Of a DNA stretch of 31,624 nt, positions 4,571-28,898 are shown in pieces; positions within the stretch are counted from its first letter, which is position 1; every line of letters starts with the position of its first letter. Position numbers and translations under genes: made by a program. Where the stretch lies: positions 1-31,624 of the IMG/VR virus record IMGVR_UViG_3300043411_001726; one strand, 5' to 3'. The stretch comes from a virus. Below the pieces are notes generated by a model. It saw nothing but the letters and a program-made list of their open reading frames with translations, did not search any database and was not told the DNA's origin.

Positions 4571-6316
4571 CTAATGCGATCCGTCCCCATTAGCATACCG
4601 GAAGCGGCTATGCCCGACAAGGAATTCGGCATGTACCTTGGTCACGATGAACGTCCCATCAGCTTCAAGCGGTAGCAGCCGGCCCTTCATATCGAACAGC
4701 TGGTTGATATCAGTCGAAGGCGGATAGACCCTGACGCCGCCGGCTGCGAGGGTGGGGATTTGGGCATTGGTCGCGGCCAAGGCTTCCCTGCGCAGCTTCT
4801 CCGCTTCGATCTGCATGTACTCCACAAGGCCGGAGGTCCCATCGAGGAACGCGTTAAAGGCCCGGCTGGTCGCATCGACATCGTCATCCTTGGCTGTCGG
4901 GGCGGGGAAGGACTCGAGCGCTGAGAACCAGCGATTGTTCCATGGCCCTTGCAGGACCTTGACGCGGCCGGCCTGAGCGGTGGCGGAGAAGGCACTGAAG
5001 CGCACGACCTTGTCACCCCGCTCCGGGGTATGTCGGACAGGCACGCCATCAAGCATGACACCGAAGTGCGCGACCTGGTGCTTACCGGCCTGCGCGGGGT
5101 CCTGCGGAATCCACTGCTCCGTCTGCGGTCCATCGCCACCTTCGCCCTTGGCGATAGCCGTCATATGGGCTTCGACGCCGAACGGGGTGGTCATGATATT
5201 GGTGGAGTCTACCACGTAGTAGATCTTCTCCATGATGTCCTTGCCGATCTTGCAGGAGGCGGTCGCATCGGGGTCATTCAGATCATTCTTCTCCGTCGCC
5301 GCGAGGTCCCAGCCGCGCTTGAAGATCAGGCCCGGCGGCAGGCTCTTGACGATCTCGACCCAATTCCTATTGAAGTACAGGCCCGGTGCCGGGCGAATCT
5401 TCCAGTTGCCTTTCAGCAGGCGCTCGCGCTCGACGGTGGGCAGGATAAGCAGCTTGGCCAGATAGTCCGGGTCGTTCTTGAGCAGCTCCTTGTTGTCATA
5501 GATGCTGGCGGCAATGAACGTAGCGCTGATGGGCTTGAGAGGGATCTCCTGCCCATCCGGGGTAAAGCGCGGCAGGCCAAGCTTCTCGTGGTTCAACTCC
5601 TCGGCGCGGTCGGCCCAGACCAGGTCATCGCCGACCCGAACAAAGAACCTGACCTTGCCGCTGCGGTCCATACGGGGGAAGCCGTAGTTCGGGTTGGCCT
5701 TCTCCCCGATGTACTCGCGGTCATCGATCCACCACGCAATGAACTTGGCCACCCAGCTATCGGCATCGGGGTTGCAGGTCGCGCGGAGGTAAGGCCGTAC
5801 GCCGCACTCGGAACGGTTGCGGGACAGCATGTAGAAGAACTGCTTCTCGCTGAACTCGCAAAGCTCGTCGAACTGGAGCAGGGTTATCTGCGAGCCGTGC
5901 CAATCGTAGACCGTCGACTCGTGCTCGAGATGCGCGAACTTGATCTTGCCGGCGCCGGGCCACTCCCACTCCAAACTCGACTGCTTATCGCTGCCCCCGA
6001 TCTCAGGGTACACGAGGTAGCTCTGGTCCCAGATCGAACCGGGGTTGCGGATGCTGGGGATGGAACGGCGGAAGGTGACGCAGTTGTAGCCGGCATACTT
6101 TGGCATGGTACAATAGCGCACGGGCTCGAGCAGGAGCGAGAACGACTTACCGCTGCCGGCCGAACCGCCGTAGATCGCTATATCGGCGCCGCACGAAGCG
6201 AACTTGGTCTGGGGGCCATCCTGCGGCCCAAGCTTGCGGACGCCGGGCGGTAGCTCCAGAGGTGGGGGGTCGCGTTCGGCTTCCAGGACGTCAGTACTAC
6301 GGACCCGCTGCACCAT
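4571..6316 (-). CDS. terL: Terminase large subunit
   Basis: The DNA-packaging motor, 581 residues. The ATPase domain has a Walker A loop GGSAGSGKS (about 50-58), a Walker B strand ending QFDEL (D150, E151) and a coupling motif RATCNPD (about 178-184). The C-terminal nuclease domain starts around GWDLAAT (D337), continues with WIPQDPAQAGKHQ and ends with an acidic cluster KDDDVDATSRAF near residue 480; these acidic residues fit the RNase H-like metal site. It would cleave concatemers and pump DNA into proheads together with the small subunit and portal. The opening M-V-Q-R-V-R-S-T-D resembles the starts of RecA and DpdA here. The gene starts four bases after the preceding stop, behind a short G-run. 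Confidence 0.96.
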   Translation of the reverse strand: MVQRVRSTDVLEAERDPPPLELPPGVRKLGPQDGPQTKFASCGADIAIYGGSAGSGKSFSLLLEPVRYCTMPKYAGYNCVTFRRSIPSIRNPGSIWDQSYLVYPEIGGSDKQSSLEWEWPGAGKIKFAHLEHESTVYDWHGSQITLLQFDELCEFSEKQFFYMLSRNRSECGVRPYLRATCNPDADSWVAKFIAWWIDDREYIGEKANPNYGFPRMDRSGKVRFFVRVGDDLVWADRAEELNHEKLGLPRFTPDGQEIPLKPISATFIAASIYDNKELLKNDPDYLAKLLILPTVERERLLKGNWKIRPAPGLYFNRNWVEIVKSLPPGLIFKRGWDLAATEKNDLNDPDATASCKIGKDIMEKIYYVVDSTNIMTTPFGVEAHMTAIAKGEGGDGPQTEQWIPQDPAQAGKHQVAHFGVMLDGVPVRHTPERGDKVVRFSAFSATAQAGRVKVLQGPWNNRWFSALESFPAPTAKDDDVDATSRAFNAFLDGTSGLVEYMQIEAEKLRREALAATNAQIPTLAAGGVRVYPPSTDINQLFDMKGRLLPLEADGTFIVTKVHAEFLVGHSRFRYANGDGSH

Positions 6317-20816: not shown

Positions 20817-23438
20817 CTACCACTGATCCGATGAGAAGTCCCCGGCTTTGTCCAGGTGCTCCCAATCCTTACCGACCGCGACCTCGACCGTAATGGGCAC
20901 GTTGATCCAATCGTAGTGCCTAAAATCTAACATACGGTCTATTACGAACTCGAGGCGCTCGTCCAACTTGTACTTCGGCATGATGAACGTGAGATCGTCA
21001 TGGATCATCAGGCTGGGCTGGGTATCCCAATCATCCGCATCGCGCACGACGCGGGCCATGGCATCCTTGACGAGGCAGGCTTCGTCCGCCTGGATGGGGC
21101 TATTGATGATCTGATTCTGCGTCAGCGGGGCGCGGCGGCGGCGGCCGGAGAGCGCCTCGACATAACCCGTCTTGCGGTAGGAAGCGACGAGGCGCTCCTG
21201 CCATGCCTTGACGCCGGAGAAGATGCGCCAGAAGGCTTCGTACTCCGGCTTGATATAGTTCAGAGGTATCTCGAGATTGTCGGCGACCGAGCCGGCGACG
21301 GAGCCAAAGAACAAGGGGAACGTCCACTTGTTCTTTACGTCCTGCCGCCAGTCCTTCATGATCTTCTTGTCTGTCAGGTTCTGCTTGCCACCGATGCGGC
21401 TGGGGTAAGCATGCGCCAAGCGCTCGGCCCACTCCATGTGCACATCGTACCGTTCCCACAGCGCCTTGACGAAGACAGGGTCCTTGGACTCCATAGCGAT
21501 ATTGCGCGCCTGAATCTGGCCGTAGTCAATGGCGACCATGACGTGCTCGTCCGGCGCTTCGATCTGCGATCTGACTTCCTTCTGCCCCTCATTCCGCTTG
21601 GGCCAATTCTGCCCGTTCGGGTCCTCCATCGACGTCCGGCCGGTCGCTGTAACCGTCGTATTGGTCTGCGGATGCAACATGCCATCATCGTGGAGGTAAG
21701 CACCGCCGACGCGCAAGCCATCATTATACGTCGACTTGACCTTGGTAATCTTGCGCCGGGCCAGGATGTCGTTGGTCAGGGGATTACCGATCAGCTTGAG
21801 GACGTCTTCCTCGACCGAGTAGCTACCGCTTTCCCCGCGCATACCTTCCTTGCGCTTCATCATATCCCTGACGAGGTAGGTCACGTCCGGGTTGTTGGAA
21901 GGGTCGAACCTGGTCCCCTTTAGCCGCTCGAACTCCGCGACCAGCGGGTACTTGGCTATCTTCTCATCGAAGCGACGCAGCTCGGCCGTATACTTGGCGG
22001 ACAGCGCTTCGACCCGATCCTGGTTGACGGGCAAGCCCTTAAGCTGCATCCGGGTCAGCGGTGCGATCTGGTAGAGGTCATCCTCGTACAGGTTCAGGAA
22101 GCCTTCCTTGCGGATGCGGGCCATCTGGATATCGGACAGCATGCAATGGAACTTGGCGTCCATGGCGTTGTAGCGCAGGACGTCGACCAGCGGCTCGTTA
22201 TCGAGATTCTTTGTATCGGTCGTCGACAGGGCCTTAAGCGCCAGCCCGAAATACTGCCGGACGAGGAAATCCAGCGACAACGGCCCCTGCTCATTCTTGC
22301 GCTGGCCTTCGCCGCGCCCTGTGCGCTCGTCGAGGACAGCCGCCTGCGACATGGTATCTTCCCACTCGCTATGGAGCAGGCACCGATCATCAAAATGGGC
22401 AGCCGACCACTCAAGCTCGAACGGGAGATTGTGAACGGCCTTGCGCATACGCGGCTTGTTCAGGAAGGCGGTCCAAATTGTCCGGAGCTGCTTGCGGTGC
22501 TCCAGGCTCCATTTGGCCTGCGAGTGCAAGTAGGGGAAGGCAAGGCTCCGGAGCGGCGTTCCGACCGCGATGGTCAAGACCTTGGCCGTCTTGGCATAAG
22601 GCCGTTTGCTGTTCGTCTCGTAGTCGACGCCGACAACATCGGCTTCCCCGGCCCAGGTCAGAAAGGCTTCGATGCGGGCAAGCCCAGCTTGGGTGCAGTC
22701 TGTCACCCACTCGACGCCTTGCATGGCTTCCTTGGTCGTCACGACCTGGGCCGGGGGCAGGCTGTCTATCTCGGCAAAGGCCCGCGCCAGATCGAAGCGG
22801 AATACCCGCTCGTCTTCCGAGCCCACATCGGAATCCCGCAGGGTGCGCCCCGTGCGCTTCTCGGCCTCGTCACGACTCCGCGTGATATAGGCGGGGTGGT
22901 GGAAGCTGTAGAACCAGCACGTATGGGAGCCGACCTGCACAGGAAGGCGCCGGCCGCGCCAATTGTTCAGGCCCGACTGCCCGGCGGCCCATGAGAGCGG
23001 GATGGCGCCGAAACCGAAGATGGCCTTTGGCTTGGTATGTTCTATGTCCCTAATGATGCTTGGGCGGCAGGACTCCACCTCTACGTAGTCAGGCTCCCGG
23101 TTTTCTGGCGGCCTTGTACGCACTACATTGTTCCACCGGATATCGGGCAGGAACTCGCGCGGGATTTGGGCGCGCAGAAGCTGGCCTGACTTTCCGACGA
23201 AGTGCGCCCGCTCGGCGTCCTCCTGTGCCCCCGGTGCCTCACCGAGGACATAGATCAGCGGCTTGCTGGAACCGGCGGCGGGGATATCGGGGTTCTTGTT
23301 ATTCCATTCCCGGCCCTCGTGCATGGGATGCTTCAGCGGGCAGGCCTTGCACTCCAGCCGATGCAGGAGCTCCAGAGACGGGATTCCGGAGCGCGGTCGA
23401 CTGACGGCGTTCTTACCACCTGAGGCGAAGAAGGACAC
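20817..23438 (-). CDS. polA: DNA polymerase I-type with N-terminal uracil-DNA-glycosylase-like domain
   Basis: 873 residues with three parts. Residues about 20-200 are a family 4-like iron-sulfur UDG domain: C30 and C33 (ECKAC), GEAPGAQED (66-74), C124, C174 and HPAY (181-184). Residues about 260-440 are a 3'-5' exonuclease (VDYETNS 271-277, HNLPFELEW 336-344, YNAMDAKF 423-430). Residues about 450-873 are family A polymerase: TGRTSMEDPNGQNWP, motif A DYGQIQAR (638-645), motif B RQDVKNKWTFPLFFG and motif C MIHDDL (811-816). In motif A the usual steric-gate glutamate is a glutamine, and motif C has HDD instead of HDE. GTG start. The fusion recalls SPO1-type phage polymerases. The UDG part may police uracil or help bind template. 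Confidence 0.93.
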   Translation of the reverse strand: MSFFASGGKNAVSRPRSGIPSLELLHRLECKACPLKHPMHEGREWNNKNPDIPAAGSSKPLIYVLGEAPGAQEDAERAHFVGKSGQLLRAQIPREFLPDIRWNNVVRTRPPENREPDYVEVESCRPSIIRDIEHTKPKAIFGFGAIPLSWAAGQSGLNNWRGRRLPVQVGSHTCWFYSFHHPAYITRSRDEAEKRTGRTLRDSDVGSEDERVFRFDLARAFAEIDSLPPAQVVTTKEAMQGVEWVTDCTQAGLARIEAFLTWAGEADVVGVDYETNSKRPYAKTAKVLTIAVGTPLRSLAFPYLHSQAKWSLEHRKQLRTIWTAFLNKPRMRKAVHNLPFELEWSAAHFDDRCLLHSEWEDTMSQAAVLDERTGRGEGQRKNEQGPLSLDFLVRQYFGLALKALSTTDTKNLDNEPLVDVLRYNAMDAKFHCMLSDIQMARIRKEGFLNLYEDDLYQIAPLTRMQLKGLPVNQDRVEALSAKYTAELRRFDEKIAKYPLVAEFERLKGTRFDPSNNPDVTYLVRDMMKRKEGMRGESGSYSVEEDVLKLIGNPLTNDILARRKITKVKSTYNDGLRVGGAYLHDDGMLHPQTNTTVTATGRTSMEDPNGQNWPKRNEGQKEVRSQIEAPDEHVMVAIDYGQIQARNIAMESKDPVFVKALWERYDVHMEWAERLAHAYPSRIGGKQNLTDKKIMKDWRQDVKNKWTFPLFFGSVAGSVADNLEIPLNYIKPEYEAFWRIFSGVKAWQERLVASYRKTGYVEALSGRRRRAPLTQNQIINSPIQADEACLVKDAMARVVRDADDWDTQPSLMIHDDLTFIMPKYKLDERLEFVIDRMLDFRHYDWINVPITVEVAVGKDWEHLDKAGDFSSDQW

Positions 23439-23445
23439 GGCCGCC

Positions 23446-24507
23446 CTAGGAGGCGGCGATCATATACAGGAACTTCAGGTCCCTGCCCAACAGCGCCAAG
23501 CCCCCTTCCGTGACCAGCATGTGGTCGCAGCGGTCGAGACCCCGCTTGACCAGCACAGGGTCGATCTTGATGGAGACGTCCTTGTGCTTCTTGCCTTCCT
23601 CCAGGTGAATCTCGTCATCGAGTTCACCCAGCGGTGAGACGGCCTTGAGGAACAGGGCGTTGTCGGCGACCTCCATACTGATCGGTTCGGCCAGCTTGCC
23701 GTCGAGGATGACTAGAGCCCGCTCGATAGCCATCTTCATGACGCCGGGGATCTTGACCGCATCCTTGCCGTAACCCTTGGGCAGGACCCTCTCTAGGGCG
23801 CCTGAGAAGTCGCTTGGGTTGGGGGAATCGAGCTGGCGCGCGAAGATACCGACGCCGCCCTTGGTCTCGGCCAGCACGCCGCCCTTGAGAACGGCAAACT
23901 TTGAATCGGCGCCGCAGAGCCGCAGGACCTGCTCGGCGAACGGGGCGGGCACGATCAGGTGCTCTTCGTCATAGCCCTTTGGCACGGCGACGTGCGACCG
24001 GGCGATCGTCTTGGCGTCGGTGGCGTATAAGGTCAGTCCGTCCTCTTCGAGCGCAAAGGTCACGCCGAGCTGATCGGGGTTAGAGACGTCGGAGCCGACG
24101 GCGATCATGACATCGGCCAGCCCCGCCAGGAGCTCCTTGGAGAGTGGCACGAAGTCGGCCGCCTTGACCTTGGGATACTCCCAGACGGCCCGGCTGGCCT
24201 CGAGCAGCGCCAGCTTGGCCTTGGCCTTGGCGGCCTTGAGGTGGGCCTCCTTGCCCTCTGCCGCCGCGTCCAGCTCGATGTTCTTGGCGCCGCTGGCATT
24301 CAGCAGGCCCAAGAGCAAAGCGCCCTTGACGCCGCCCGCCATATCGCCGCACTCGAACGGGGCGCGGATGCCCAGGATATCGTCGTAGGCCGTCAGGTGC
24401 TTCGAACCCAGCCAAATGTGAGTGAGCTCGTCGAGCAGCGCCTTCGACGCGACCGCCGGCTTTATCAGGTCGAGCGCCTTCAGGAATTCCAAACGATCTG
24501 TCTTCAC
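23446..24507 (-). CDS. dnaN: DNA polymerase sliding clamp (DnaN-like)
   Basis: A 353-residue protein with a GTG start, joined as GTGA to the stop of the last small paralogue. The opening MKTDRLEFLKALDLIKPAVA and later ELTHIWLGSKHLTAYDDILG fit the first domain of a beta clamp. Further landmarks are LGVTFALEEDGLTLYATDAK, IARSHVAVP, and GYDEEHLIVPAPFAEQVLRL. The repeated domain pattern is visible though the family is divergent. A processivity ring for the phage polymerase, encoded immediately downstream, is the expected role, with the clamp loader further along. Confidence 0.83.
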   Translation of the reverse strand: MKTDRLEFLKALDLIKPAVASKALLDELTHIWLGSKHLTAYDDILGIRAPFECGDMAGGVKGALLLGLLNASGAKNIELDAAAEGKEAHLKAAKAKAKLALLEASRAVWEYPKVKAADFVPLSKELLAGLADVMIAVGSDVSNPDQLGVTFALEEDGLTLYATDAKTIARSHVAVPKGYDEEHLIVPAPFAEQVLRLCGADSKFAVLKGGVLAETKGGVGIFARQLDSPNPSDFSGALERVLPKGYGKDAVKIPGVMKMAIERALVILDGKLAEPISMEVADNALFLKAVSPLGELDDEIHLEEGKKHKDVSIKIDPVLVKRGLDRCDHMLVTEGGLALLGRDLKFLYMIAAS

Positions 24508-24651
24508 AGCTTATCCCCTTTCAACTGGAGCAGGAGGTCCTGCCCTTTGTGCATGACGTAGAAATAGGAGACGAGGATACTTGCCGCCCCCCCCTTCTAG
24601 CAGAACCCGGATCTTCCACTCGCGCGGGTCGACGGCGAATACGGTCTTCAC
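24504..24651 (-). pseudogene. Fourth small DpdA-array paralogue, frame broken at a C8 run
   Basis: A GTG start (24649-24651) joined as GTGA to the upstream stop opens VKTVFAVDPREWKIRVLLEG. After the G-run (plus-strand C8, 24587-24594) the reading frame must shift by +1 to continue as GAASILVSYFYVMHKG and reach KGDKL with a TGA that overlaps the clamp start as GTGA. Without a shift the frame ends at a TAA at 24511-24513 after 46 residues. The shifted product shows the N-x-L-x-S-Y-like core (S-I-L-V-S-Y) of its three neighbours. One G too many in the run, programmed frameshifting, or natural decay all explain it. Confidence 0.6.
24587..24594. other. C8 homopolymer at the apparent +1 frameshift
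   Basis: Eight Cs on the plus strand (G8 in the mRNA) lie exactly where the paralogue frames break. Seven would restore an uninterrupted reading frame from GTG 24651 to the TGA coupled to the clamp start. Confidence 0.6.
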
Positions 24652-24848
24652 TCGGGGACCCCCTTGAGCCGGCGGCCCTTGACGATGCGGGGGACCTTGG
24701 TTGCGCCGCCCTTGATGTAGGCGACGAACTTGTCATCATCGTTCGGGCACATCCAGTAGGAGAGCAGGACGTTATTCCCGCCCGCGCGCTCGATCGCGTA
24801 GATGAGATGGAAAGCGCTGAGGTTTGGCAAGGCGAACAAAATGCGCAT
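24648..24848 (-). CDS. Third small DpdA-array paralogue (66 aa, intact)
   Basis: Begins MRILFALPNLSAFHLIYAIE, then RAGGNNVLLSYWMCPNDDDK and FVAYIKGGATKV, ending with a basic tail VKGRRLKG. The ATG is joined to the upstream stop as TGATG, so the earlier in-frame start was rejected. The pattern is a short N-terminal strand (R-I-L-F-A), a helix, a strand N-N-V-L-L-S-Y-W and a last helix Y-x-K-G-G. The three adjacent small genes have the same plan. It may be a detached module of the DpdA enzyme encoded upstream. No known family was recognised for the stand-alone form. Confidence 0.8.
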   Translation of the reverse strand: MRILFALPNLSAFHLIYAIERAGGNNVLLSYWMCPNDDDKFVAYIKGGATKVPRIVKGRRLKGVPE

Positions 24849-25005
24849 CAGCCTAGCTCCCCCGTCCGGATATAGTGCCAGAGCCAGTCGGGGTTCCAAC
24901 GCGTGGTGTAGTAATAGCTGAACAGGACGTTAGCCGGGGAGCCCAGCGCTCGCTGATACGGTATGGGGGGCCAAACTTTCCGGAGTTCGCGAAAATGATC
25001 TTCAC
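24848..25005 (-). pseudogene. Second small DpdA-array paralogue, frame broken at a G6 run
   Basis: A GTG at 25003-25005, in GTGA overlap with the upstream stop, gives VKIIFANSGKFGP. Continuing as PIPYQRALGSPANVLFSYYY requires a -1 shift at the C6 run in the mRNA (plus-strand G6, 24965-24970). With it, the N-V-L-x-S-Y core falls at residues 26-31, exactly as in the intact third paralogue. Without a shift the frame ends at a TAG (24853-24855) after 50 residues. An alternative is a continuous 65-residue frame from 25045, but that start lies inside the previous gene and does not resemble the paralogue N-termini. Sequencing miscount, programmed shift or decay are open. Confidence 0.6.
24965..24970. 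other. G6 homopolymer at the apparent -1 frameshift
   Basis: Six Gs on the plus strand (C6 in mRNA, context GGCCCCCCAT) mark the point where the second paralogue changes frame. One additional base would give a single frame from the GTG to the stop. Confidence 0.6.
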
Positions 25006-25274
25006 CGCCGCCCCCGGCGGACGGGGATGACTTCCTCGTCCTCATCCCACTCGGCAGCGGGCGCTTGCATGACCGGCGCCGCTGCGGCGGCCTTGACCCG
25101 CTTCCCCTTGGTCTCGGGCGCGATGCCGGTCCGGCAGTAGGTCTCGAAATCGGCGTCCGTCATATCGCGGGAGAACCAATAGGAGGCCAGCCTGTTGTTG
25201 GCGCCTTCCCGGGTCAGGACGCGGCCCTGATACGCGACCGCCGGCCATTGCGCCAGGAGGAGGGTGAATTTCAC
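25002..25274 (-). CDS. First small DpdA-array paralogue with acidic/basic tail (90 aa, intact)
   Basis: Begins MKFTLLLAQWPAVAYQGRVL, continues TREGANNRLASYWFSRDMTD and FETYCRTGIAPETKGKRVK, and ends with a 35-residue low-complexity tail (AAAAAPVMQAPAAEWDEDEE, then VRRGRR). The core N-N-R-L-A-S-Y-W and Y-C-R-T-G match the other three. The ATG overlaps the dpdA stop (ATGA), so translation is probably coupled to DpdA. A partner or module of DpdA is the working idea; the sequence alone does not give a function. Confidence 0.82.
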   Translation of the reverse strand: MKFTLLLAQWPAVAYQGRVLTREGANNRLASYWFSRDMTDADFETYCRTGIAPETKGKRVKAAAAAPVMQAPAAEWDEDEEVIPVRRGRR

Positions 25275-26131
25275 AGCAGGAAGCCCCCGCCGGTCTGGTG
25301 CTTGAAACGGACCTCGCCGATGGCCGCTTCGAAACGGAGCATGAAATGGACAATGGCGCGGGCGCGGGCTTCATAGTCGGACGCCACCTCGTCGATCGTC
25401 AGCCCGGTCTCGTCCTTGAGGTAGGCGCGGATGCGGGCCTGCACCATAGGCCCCATGGCGTCGTAATGATCGTTTGGCATGCTCTCGCGGTTCTCGTAGC
25501 GGCTGACCGTGACCTTGATGGGCGGCTCGGCATAGTCCGGCTCGCCCGCGCGGTAGATCGGGAAGAAGATTCCGCCATAGGCCGCGGTCAGCGCCCAGCT
25601 TGTCGCATCGCACGTATACCAAGGATAACGGCGCATAAGGTCGAAGCTGGCGACGGCGAAGCCGTGGGTCTTGACCTTTGGGCGGCCTTCCTTGTCACAC
25701 AGCTTGGTGAAGATGGGGTCCAGCCACATGACGGCGCCATCGACGCCCTTGGTGGTGATCGACGGGGCCAGCCCGATATAGTCGGCGCCCGCATCCAGGT
25801 AGCGCTGTACCCATTTGTAGGGCTCCCCGGAGTGCACAACCGGGATCGGGTTCAGGCCGCGCTTGCGCATGTACTCATAGTTCTTGAACGAGGAAGTCGC
25901 CCCGGCTTCGGCCATCGCCCCCGTGCGGACCTGCCCCTTGGTGCCGGGGATCGTATCCAGGTTCACGTAATGGGCGATCAGGTGCTTGTGCTTCTCGATG
26001 TAGTCGCAATACTCATCGATGTCGATGGTAATGCCCTGCGACCATGCGCTGAAGGCACCCGAATCCAACCACAGATTGATGACGGGCTTATCAGCCTTTG
26101 CCGCATCCGTGCTGCGCCTGCGCTCTACCAT
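25271..26131 (-). CDS. dpdA: DpdA-type 7-deazaguanine DNA transglycosylase
   Basis: 286 residues. The core begins INLWLDSGAFSAWSQG with the catalytic-type aspartate D23, then YVNLDTIPG, VVHSGEPYKWVQRYLDAGAD, YIGLAPS and VKTHGFAVASFDLM, and ends the catalytic region with TCDATSW (D175). This is the phage DpdA branch of the tRNA-guanine transglycosylase fold, which swaps guanine in DNA for a 7-deazaguanine base such as preQ0. FolE, QueD and QueC genes surround it. The first 16 residues (M-V-E-R-R-R-S-T-D-A...) match the leader of terminase and RecA; the longer N-terminal region I associate with phage DpdA relatives is absent. Which sub-family (DpdA1-4) is uncertain. Confidence 0.9.
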   Translation of the reverse strand: MVERRRSTDAAKADKPVINLWLDSGAFSAWSQGITIDIDEYCDYIEKHKHLIAHYVNLDTIPGTKGQVRTGAMAEAGATSSFKNYEYMRKRGLNPIPVVHSGEPYKWVQRYLDAGADYIGLAPSITTKGVDGAVMWLDPIFTKLCDKEGRPKVKTHGFAVASFDLMRRYPWYTCDATSWALTAAYGGIFFPIYRAGEPDYAEPPIKVTVSRYENRESMPNDHYDAMGPMVQARIRAYLKDETGLTIDEVASDYEARARAIVHFMLRFEAAIGEVRFKHQTGGGFLL

Positions 26132-26173: not shown

Positions 26174-26749
26174 CTAGATAACGGCATTGCGGCTGCCCAG
26201 CTCCACCAAGCGCAGGAACTCTCCGCGCGCAATGGGCTTGTCCTTGAAGGCCCCCGTCAGGGCGGAGGTCGTCGTGATGGTCCCGCGCGCCCTGACGCCG
26301 CGCGATTCCATGCACATATGCCGGCACTGGATGACGACCCCGACCGCGACCGGCTTGAGGACCTCCTGGATCGTATCGGCGATCTGCCGGGTCATGCGCT
26401 CCTGGACCTGCAAGCGACGTGAGAAGACCTCGACCAGCCGGGCGAACTTTGAAAGGCCCACGACGCGGCCGTTGGGGATGTAGCCGACGTGCGCCAGCCC
26501 CCAGAACGGCGCGAGGTGGTGCTCACAACTCGAGTACACGGGGATATTCGAGACCAGCACGACCTCATCGTAGCTCTCCGCCCCATCGGCGAACGACTTG
26601 AGCAGGGAAGCGGGGTCGGCCTCGTAGCCGGAGGTATACTCGGCCCATGCCTTGACCATGCGCTCCGGGGTCTCGGCCAAGCCTTCGCGCTCGCATTCGG
26701 GGGCCAGCTCCCGCAGGAAGGCCCCCGCCGTCTTAACCGTCAGCGCCAT
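26174..26749 (-). CDS. folE: GTP cyclohydrolase I (FolE)
   Basis: 191 residues in the type I FolE family. Zinc ligands are visible in SSCEHHLAPF (C75, H78) and CRHMCMESRGV (C146); the intervening GYIPNGRVVGLSKFARLVEVF, then RLQVQERMTRQIADTI are canonical. It converts GTP to dihydroneopterin triphosphate, the first step toward 7-deazaguanines via QueD. The chosen start MALTVKTAGAFLRELAPECE lies four bases after the queC stop with a GGAAG ribosome-binding site. The open frame extends 70 codons upstream, but that stretch overlaps queC and has no FolE similarity. Confidence 0.96.
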   Translation of the reverse strand: MALTVKTAGAFLRELAPECEREGLAETPERMVKAWAEYTSGYEADPASLLKSFADGAESYDEVVLVSNIPVYSSCEHHLAPFWGLAHVGYIPNGRVVGLSKFARLVEVFSRRLQVQERMTRQIADTIQEVLKPVAVGVVIQCRHMCMESRGVRARGTITTTSALTGAFKDKPIARGEFLRLVELGSRNAVI

Positions 26750-26753
26750 GGGG

Positions 26754-27560
26754 CTAATACTTCCGAAGCCGTTGTTCGAGATCGACGATCTTCTCGTAGA
26801 CGCTCTCACCGCGCAAGTCTTGGAGAAGCCCGGAGTAGTTGGTGTAATTCCTCTCCTCAGGAAGGGCCATCGCGCCCTCAAGCCACGCCCGGACGACCAG
26901 CGGGTCCGGGGAATTGGCTTCCTCGAATGACTTCTGGCGCAACAGGCTTGCCCGGTCATGCCCCGTCGGCGGGTAGAGGCCGTCGTAAGCCGTATGGGAA
27001 TAGGCCAGCGCCCTGTAGCAGCCGGGCAGGGACCGGGCCAGATCGACGGCTTCCCCCTTGGAGAGGTAGAGCAGCGGGCAGTCGAAGGTGATCTTGCGCT
27101 CCAGCCCGGCCAGGATGGTCGTCTCTAGTGCATGAATGAACGGGGCGCGGCAGTCCGGATAGCCGCCCATGCCATGCGCCAAGCCCAGACTGATTGTATC
27201 GATGCCCTTGACGAAGGCGCGGTTGGCGGCCAGCGTCATGAAGAGCAGGTTGCGGGCCGGCACAAAGGTCTTCTCCAGCCCGCCGGGCAGGACCTTGTGC
27301 GACTCGTATTCCTCCAGCTTCGCATTGGGGTCGGTCAGGGGGCTTGTGCCCTGAAGGATCGAGCCGATCTTGAGGACCTCGTGGTCCTTGATGCCGACCA
27401 TCTTGGCAATGATCAGGGCGGACTCGATCTCGATCGAATTCTTCTGGTTGTAGTCGATAGTCAGGGCGGAGACATTCTCGACGCCCCGGTCGGCGACCGC
27501 TTTATATAGTACAGTCGTCGAATCCTGACCGCCACTGAAGACTACAAGCGTTTTACTCAT
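26754..27560 (-). CDS. queC: QueC-like preQ0 synthase with a degenerate zinc site
   Basis: 268 residues with the PP-loop SGGQDSTT (9-16), DYNQKNSIE, FVPARNLLF and GGYPDCRAPF, all QueC hallmarks. QueC normally turns 7-carboxy-7-deazaguanine, ATP and ammonia into preQ0 and holds zinc with four cysteines in the pattern CYxG...CGxCxxCxLR. Here that stretch reads AYDGLYPPTGHDRASLLR (191-208), with alanine, threonine, aspartate and serine in the four positions. The chain also continues past the usual end by about 50 residues. The protein may be active with a metal-free structure, or may have changed role. It has a GGAGGG ribosome-binding site and lies downstream of a strong hairpin. Confidence 0.9.
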   Translation of the reverse strand: MSKTLVVFSGGQDSTTVLYKAVADRGVENVSALTIDYNQKNSIEIESALIIAKMVGIKDHEVLKIGSILQGTSPLTDPNAKLEEYESHKVLPGGLEKTFVPARNLLFMTLAANRAFVKGIDTISLGLAHGMGGYPDCRAPFIHALETTILAGLERKITFDCPLLYLSKGEAVDLARSLPGCYRALAYSHTAYDGLYPPTGHDRASLLRQKSFEEANSPDPLVVRAWLEGAMALPEERNYTNYSGLLQDLRGESVYEKIVDLEQRLRKY

Positions 27561-27662: not shown

Positions 27663-28295
27663 TTAGTCGGAAATCGCCTGATACCGACCTTCGAGGAACT
27701 TCTTCGAGTGCTCCTTGGTCAGGTAGCCGAAGGCAGCGGCGACGCGCAGGCTGTTGATGAAGCCCGCCCGGACGGCGGCAGCGCGGGCCGGCGTGACGGC
27801 GACCTTCTTGGCGGCGAGCGCCTTGACCAGGTCCTGCACCTTCATGTCGGGGTCCTTCAGGACCAGCTCCTTGAGCATGAAGACCTTGGTCACCTTCCAG
27901 TCGGCCGGCTCCTTCTTGACCTTTTCCTTCTTCACGCGCGGCGCCTTGGCCGGCTTCGGCTCCTTGGCGGCCTTGGGCGGCTTCTCGGCCTTGGCAACGT
28001 CGCCGGTCTTGGCGACCCCGGTCTTCTCGGCACCCTTCTTCGGCTTGGCCGCCTTTGCGACCTCTTCGCCTTCAGCCGGGAATTCGGGGACCGGGGTCTT
28101 CTTGCCGAGCGCGGCGCATGCCGCGTTGACCCACTTCTGGGTCGGATCGGTCAGCGCGTCGAACTTGGTATCGGGGAACTTCGCGGGGTCGTCGAGGTGG
28201 GCGGCCAGCCGCTCCAGGTAGGTCTGCCGACCCTCGCCCTTCTTCTGCTTCTGGACGGTCGCCTCGACCAGCTCCTTCTCGATTGTACCGGGCAT
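27663..28295 (-). CDS. Lysine-rich protein with histone-H1-like linker (210 aa)
   Basis: Residues 1-75 form a small acidic/basic helical domain (QKQKKGEGRQTYLERLAAHL, DPTQKWVNAACAALGKK). Residues about 76-132 are a disordered K/A/P/E linker (AKAAKPKKGAEKTGVAKTGD, AKEPKPAKAPRVKKEKVKKE) reminiscent of histone H1 or bacterial AlgP-like tails. Residues 135-210 are helical (VFMLKELVLKDPDMKVQDLV, AAAVRAGFINSLRVAAAFGY) with a possible DNA-binding helix-turn-helix. It may be an abundant nucleoid or modification-associated protein; inside the deazaguanine cluster, contact with modified DNA is a guess. Both flanks have gaps of 78 to 102 bases, so it may have its own promoter and terminator. Confidence 0.75.
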   Translation of the reverse strand: MPGTIEKELVEATVQKQKKGEGRQTYLERLAAHLDDPAKFPDTKFDALTDPTQKWVNAACAALGKKTPVPEFPAEGEEVAKAAKPKKGAEKTGVAKTGDVAKAEKPPKAAKEPKPAKAPRVKKEKVKKEPADWKVTKVFMLKELVLKDPDMKVQDLVKALAAKKVAVTPARAAAVRAGFINSLRVAAAFGYLTKEHSKKFLEGRYQAISD

Positions 28296-28373: not shown

Positions 28374-28898
28374 TCAAAACGGATAGTACGCCGCGCAATT
28401 CGGGGTCTCATGTACAACTATCTGCGACAGACGGGCAAGACCTTCTGACCGCTCTACGACGCGTGGGACAAGCCGGTTGAACCAGTGCCGCGCCAGCACC
28501 TCGGCCGTCGGCGTATCCCCGATAAGGTACATCTTATGCTCGATACCGAGAGCCTCGTCCTCGAAGATTCCACCGGAGCAGCCATAGCGCTCTACCGTAT
28601 CCCTTTGATGTTCGATAAGAACGCTTGGAATGAAAAGCGACAGCAGCGGGTCCTTGACATGCAGAATAGTCGCGTGATCGCAGGGCGTATCGATCTCGGC
28701 CATCATCTCCTCTTTCAGAAACCCGAAATCAAGCGTCATGCCTTGCTGCTCCCCCATCACCTGGAGCGGCCCCGAGCAGACGGCTTCGATTGTGTAGCGG
28801 TGCCCGTGCAACCGCCTGCACTTGGAGCCGTGCTGCGCGACCCTATGCGCCGCGTCGATGCCGATCTCCCGGCGGATGGCAAAATCCCTAAGCATCAT
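28374..28898 (-). CDS. queD: QueD (6-carboxy-tetrahydropterin synthase)
   Basis: 174 residues of the PTPS/QueD fold. Zinc histidines are H18 (DAAHRV) and H31/H33 (RLHGHRY), with the catalytic cysteine C27 before them (SKCRRLHGH); TLDFGFLKEEM, PCDHATIL and the end VVHETPNCAAYYPF complete the signature. It converts dihydroneopterin triphosphate into 6-carboxytetrahydropterin, the substrate for QueE. An insertion of about 30 residues follows D74-H75. Two ATG codons are in tandem at the start (28898 and 28895); GGAGAAGT is better spaced for the second. The gene overlaps the DUF1643 gene by 11 bases. Confidence 0.94.
   Translation of the reverse strand: MMLRDFAIRREIGIDAAHRVAQHGSKCRRLHGHRYTIEAVCSGPLQVMGEQQGMTLDFGFLKEEMMAEIDTPCDHATILHVKDPLLSLFIPSVLIEHQRDTVERYGCSGGIFEDEALGIEHKMYLIGDTPTAEVLARHWFNRLVPRVVERSEGLARLSQIVVHETPNCAAYYPF

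Follow-up and report, generated by a model that had tools for sequence, protein, structure and literature searches.

The four small genes that separate dpdA from the sliding clamp gene in the virus record IMGVR_UViG_3300043411_001726 are, by profile comparison, homologues of the opening beta-alpha-beta unit of the DpdA barrel that stand as separate genes, and we consider it likely that together they are a phase-variable array supplying a split DpdA with interchangeable front units. In the window (the whole of this record, 31,624 bases) the main genes are encoded by the minus strand. The dpdA core (25271–26131, minus strand) stands in an operon with genes of the preQ0 pathway as identified with Pfam, all on the minus strand and upstream of it: folE, encoding GTP cyclohydrolase I (26174–26959; PF01227, E 5e-66), queC (26754–27560; PF06508, E 9e-39), and queD (28374–28898; PF01242, E 8e-28). 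No match to QueE was found among the window genes tested. This deazaguanine operon also includes a gene for 210 residues (27663–28295) with no match in Pfam or PHROGs. The sliding clamp gene (23446–24507, minus strand; phrog_947, E 6e-32) lies 3' of the array, and at 20817–23438 the window encodes a family A DNA polymerase with an N-terminal domain resembling uracil-DNA-glycosylase (PF03167, E 1e-15). A clamp-based search returned no near relatives of the window. The 7-deazaguanine derivatives inserted by DpdA shield phage DNA from restriction (PMC6884629).

The assignment of the core gene to the DpdA family as a TGT-like DNA transglycosylase is based on its match to the phage queuine/DpdA profile phrog_887 (E 2e-44) and on its predicted fold (pLDDT 87.5), for which the best PDB matches found with Foldseek were all TGT. 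The profile match begins only at position 55, and comparison of N-termini shows that the window DpdA begins just before the motif LDSGAFSAW, whereas in full-length DpdA about 60 residues of the form MKxYLA...ILESYHY...RIRxxG precede LDSGAFSA. In the predicted structure the window core has six barrel strands, from the third on, compared with eight in the predicted structure of a fused protein, so that a complete eight-stranded barrel is not predicted within the single window chain. The window dpdA has lost its first beta-alpha-beta unit and encodes six of the eight strands. In core sequence, TGT-like fold, and operon context (folE, queC, queD, clamp, and polymerase), it resembles known DpdA (Hutinet et al. 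2019, PMC6884629); it differs in that the first two barrel strands are encoded by several separate genes. The words "split," "truncated," and "N-terminal" do not occur in the text of that article.

The sequence form missing from the window DpdA is found in the small proteins, for example as MRILFALP...NVLLSYW...YIKGG. All four genes are encoded on the minus strand. Unit 1 (25002–25274) is intact, and its beta1-alpha1-beta2 segment (VKFTLLLA...RLASYW) is followed by a C-terminal tail. Unit 2 (24848–25005), whose start overlaps the stop of unit 1, is broken, with its two strands VKIIFA and VLFSYYY in different frames. Unit 3 (24648–24848; MRILFALP...NVLLSYW) is an intact match to the unit profile, and unit 4 (24504–24651), which overlaps both the stop of unit 3 and the start of the clamp gene, is again broken, with VKTVFAVD and ILVSYFY in different frames. 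Because an earlier profile used for the broken units contained two window copies, we built an independent one that comprises 190 units from other phages and excludes the window. This profile placed the four copies ahead of every other window ORF (E 1e-5 for unit 1, and 0.007, 0.007, and 0.014), with the next best ORF at E 3.2. The free-unit profile also matched the N-termini of fused DpdA proteins (E 3e-10) and that of the classical 9g-type DpdA (E 5e-7), whereas a core-only control gave just a weak match, located at the C-terminal unit of circularly permuted members.

Direct searches with single copies recovered no relatives because the units are too short and too divergent; neighborhood and profile searches were therefore needed. 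No family for the units exists in Pfam or in PHROGs, and against PDB sequences the unit profile gave only a weak hit, to the DNA-guanine transglycosylase 7ui4 (E 0.27). A resemblance to the start of nucleoside 2-deoxyribosyltransferases (MKIYLAG) was set aside, as DpdA is what both the fusions and the second strand resemble. Foldseek searches with the model of the fused protein likewise gave only weak barrel matches, the best entry being titled Cap10-CdnD complex containing NDG modification, and the strands were therefore counted from the secondary structure of the model itself, in which the unit supplies strands 1 and 2 of eight.

Phage contigs carry the unit in three arrangements: fused to the N-terminus of DpdA, fused to its C-terminus as a circular permutation (L002, L004, L079, and others; loci are numbered with the prefix L), or as at least one separate gene around dpdA. 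Free units are present in 45 of 55 loci with a truncated dpdA but in only 1 of 13 with a circularly permuted one. This complementary distribution is the main argument for completion of the barrel in trans, by which a free unit would dock onto the core; in the remaining 10 of the 55 truncated loci no free unit was detected, some of these being cut contigs or cases below threshold. The units might instead be independent small proteins of DpdA origin, such as inhibitors or regulators, with no part in completing the enzyme. In favor of this, they are short and very divergent, several carry extra tails, and their complex with the core is a proposal; we nevertheless regard it as rather unlikely, given that the units adjoin dpdA (in a search covering dpdA neighborhoods), that relatives carry the same unit fused in frame at either end of the protein, and that free units are common with truncated and rare with permuted dpdA. 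Several loci show further arrangements: L102, L103, and L104 have two tandem units fused ahead of a single DpdA, possibly an intermediate of unit duplication, and L034 (1975–3863) has a tandem pair of DpdA-like genes, each apparently with its own front unit. The 7.8-kb dpdA locus of L209, labeled as a Candidatus Thorarchaeota metagenome-assembled genome (MAG), is probably a virus contig binned into an archaeal MAG, because it is 100% identical to the viral contig L062.

The preliminary description of the window had proposed that the second and fourth copies change frame exactly at homopolymer runs. Both runs are present, a G6 on the plus strand at 24965–24970 (C6 in the coding sense of unit 2) and a C8 on the plus strand at 24587–24594 (G8 in unit 4), and copies 1 and 3 are indeed open frames, whereas in copies 2 and 4 the two conserved halves do not share a frame. 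We located the frame switches with a codon-usage model built from the other genes of the window; a window-wide count of switches (66) was not used, as it is dominated by gene boundaries. For copy 4 the switch falls at 24608–24580 and spans the G8 run, with strong coding signal in both halves, and the run, which we propose as the slippage tract of unit 4, lies between its two strands. For copy 2 the frame change itself stands, but not its exact position at the C6 run: the best codon-usage switch is at about 24946, some 20 nt downstream, giving a frame-change interval of 24946–24970 with the run at its 5' side, and the unit profile barely favors a shift (28.4 vs. 27.4 bits), so the attribution of this break to the C6 tract is weak. 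It was also correctly noted that the shifted proteins end at the next start, but this is not diagnostic: the unshifted readings also stop within 4–7 nt of the next start (at 24853 and 24511), and the end points therefore do not favor the shifted model. The alternation of intact and broken copies has no special meaning when relatives are considered.

One explanation for both breaks is that homopolymer runs were miscounted or the assembly is in error, and that the phage itself has four unbroken genes. Both broken copies contain runs of at least six bases, although the window has just five of these, the C8 being the sole run longer than six in 31.6 kb, and the full coding signal in both halves of copy 4 is what a fresh or an artificial shift would leave. 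Against this, the switch in copy 2 is not at its run, and the rest of the family contains about 45 broken units in nonredundant loci, where related arrays break at dinucleotide repeats, which is not the typical homopolymer error, and where intact copies retain their tracts through unusual codon choice. A run miscount is possible in this one record but cannot explain the family-wide pattern, and as an account of the two breaks we judge it unlikely.

In the second set of loci, a frame-tolerant scan (threshold of at least 28 bits) gave 252 units on the coding strand and none on the opposite strand. The tract pattern was quantified over 173 nonredundant loci. Dinucleotide tracts of at least 9 bases occur at 1.26 per kb in units, compared with 0.026 elsewhere and 0.008 in the dpdA core, and G/C runs of at least 7 at 0.41 per kb in units versus 0.008 per kb, an enrichment of about 50-fold for dinucleotide tracts (mostly AG) and such runs. 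Between the unit strands of many unrelated phage contigs we found (AG)n, (TA)n, (CT)n, and G/C7–9 tracts. Almost all strong tracts (60/62) lie between the two strands of the unit, the placement also seen in unit 4 of the window, and slippage there would cut the second strand off from the start codon. Codon choice points in the same direction: RER or ERE tripeptides in intact units are encoded by pure (AG)n in 33 of 57 cases, where 2.5 would be expected from codon usage, and in dpdA cores in 0 of 22. Tracts are concentrated in loci with several units (63 of 229 units, vs. 2 of 62 in single-unit loci). The dpdA cores of the 28 comparable tract-bearing loci are all less than 70% identical to one another, and the pattern is therefore not one lineage counted many times.

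Roughly one unit in six has lost its frame, and the loss coincides with a tract significantly often: tracts are present in 27 of 45 broken but 52 of 244 intact units (P = 6e-7). Of the 45 breaks, 17 lie no more than 9 nt from a tract, where 6% would be expected. A different reading of such breaks is that redundant duplicates are decaying by ordinary pseudogenization, with no role for switching. Some unit copies are indeed plain pseudogenes or alignment noise, since a tract is missing from 18 of the 45 broken units, and stop codons interrupt two more units. As the general explanation, decay is nonetheless quite improbable in our view, as it leaves unaccounted for the roughly 50-fold tract enrichment, the siting of tracts between the strands, the (AG)n codon choice in intact copies, the coding signal retained by downstream halves, and the reversal of frame state between relatives described below. 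The units also change by larger indels, because the 98.5% identical contigs L169 and L190 differ near 4590 by a single 29-base indel, within a unit and beside a TATATATTATAT stretch.

Tract length and frame state vary together between the loci L172 and L173, which are relatives of about 87% identity and not members of one population: one orthologous unit is in frame with C8 in L172 and out of frame with C9 in L173, whereas the states are reversed for the unit after it, which is out of frame with G8 in L172 and in frame with G9 in L173. The unit immediately preceding dpdA in L041 and L063 has lost its frame at a G9 or (AG)n tract while its second half is in frame with dpdA, and in L028 a (CT)8 tract lies between the second strand of a unit and the dpdA start. 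Programmed ribosomal frameshifting or transcriptional slippage could in principle yield the shifted proteins without any change in the DNA; the G8 run might permit polymerase slippage, and shifted and unshifted readings both end at the next start. Yet (AG)n of varying length makes up most of the family's tracts and is ill suited to ribosomal slippage, tract length and frame state are not the same in orthologues, and no Rfam element was found within 24400–25400, making such a mechanism very improbable. Neither miscounts nor programmed frameshifting explain dinucleotide tracts together with biased codons in intact copies. Of the options raised in the preliminary description (phase-variable or programmed switching, or miscounts), phase variation at the DNA level is thus the one favored, on comparative rather than on window-internal grounds. 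That the length of a repeat tract sets the frame fits copy 4 with its G8 and many relatives; in the window, unit 4 agrees well with the family pattern and unit 2 only in part.

Under phase variation of this kind, one or another free unit would probably dock onto the truncated DpdA core and complete the barrel near the active site. Tracts between the unit strands would slip while the DNA is replicated, bringing the second strand into frame or taking it out, such that different members of a phage population make different sets of units. The phage sequenced here would have units 1 and 3 ON, unit 4 OFF at its G8 tract, and unit 2 OFF, less certainly because of its C6 tract. Unit variants could change the substrate or site preference of the enzyme, because the unit adjoins the LDSGAF strand, which corresponds to the TGT active-site DSGGF. 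Switching of units may thereby alter the modified sites or bases in the DNA, and hence the escape from restriction or other defenses. More tentatively, the units might serve as a bank of interchangeable, phase-variable barrel segments that gives each virion lineage a different DpdA and a different modification pattern, a proposal that we hold open without leaning toward it. If true, this would be a randomized DNA disguise, a viral counterpart of phasevarions.

Phasevarions and hsdS shuffling are known forms of phase-variable restriction-modification specificity, and random switching of DNA modification specificity would be an analogous outcome here; the parts switched would be barrel strands and not target-recognition domains, and for the array a change in specificity is only hypothesized. 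Slipped-strand phase variation is a classic bet-hedging device of bacteria, and phage arrays aimed at a DNA-hiding enzyme would mean that phages randomize their own DNA chemistry within a population. Bacterial simple-sequence-repeat contingency loci (PMC11868660) resemble the array in having mono- or dinucleotide tracts inside coding sequence, whose length loses or regains the frame, and in occurring as several loci per genome. The array differs from them in being found in phage genomes and in acting on short, apparently detachable parts of one enzyme; in the passages found there on bacteriophages, phages appear as selective agents and not as carriers. No such arrays were found in searches of the open-licence literature for splitting, frameshifts, or phase variation of DpdA and for phase variation by repeats in phages. 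These loci would also offer barrels that are split or circularly permuted in nature, with several candidate partner fragments for each core, and so allow direct tests of how barrels evolve and how enzymes are complemented.

A cultured phage with a comparable organization is Edwardsiella phage vB_EpM_ZHS (OM621816; L006). It shares with the window the order dpdA, small genes, clamp, and polymerase, the small unit proteins (ZHS_62 and ZHS_63), and an annotated dpdA that lacks a front unit and starts right before LDSGAFSA. Unlike the window, ZHS has an additional unit that immediately precedes dpdA, is in frame with it, and contains an (AG)6 tract. This front unit (L006, 3880–3995) is omitted by the annotated dpdA start, and annotation pipelines can thus miss front units and miscall the starts of dpdA genes.
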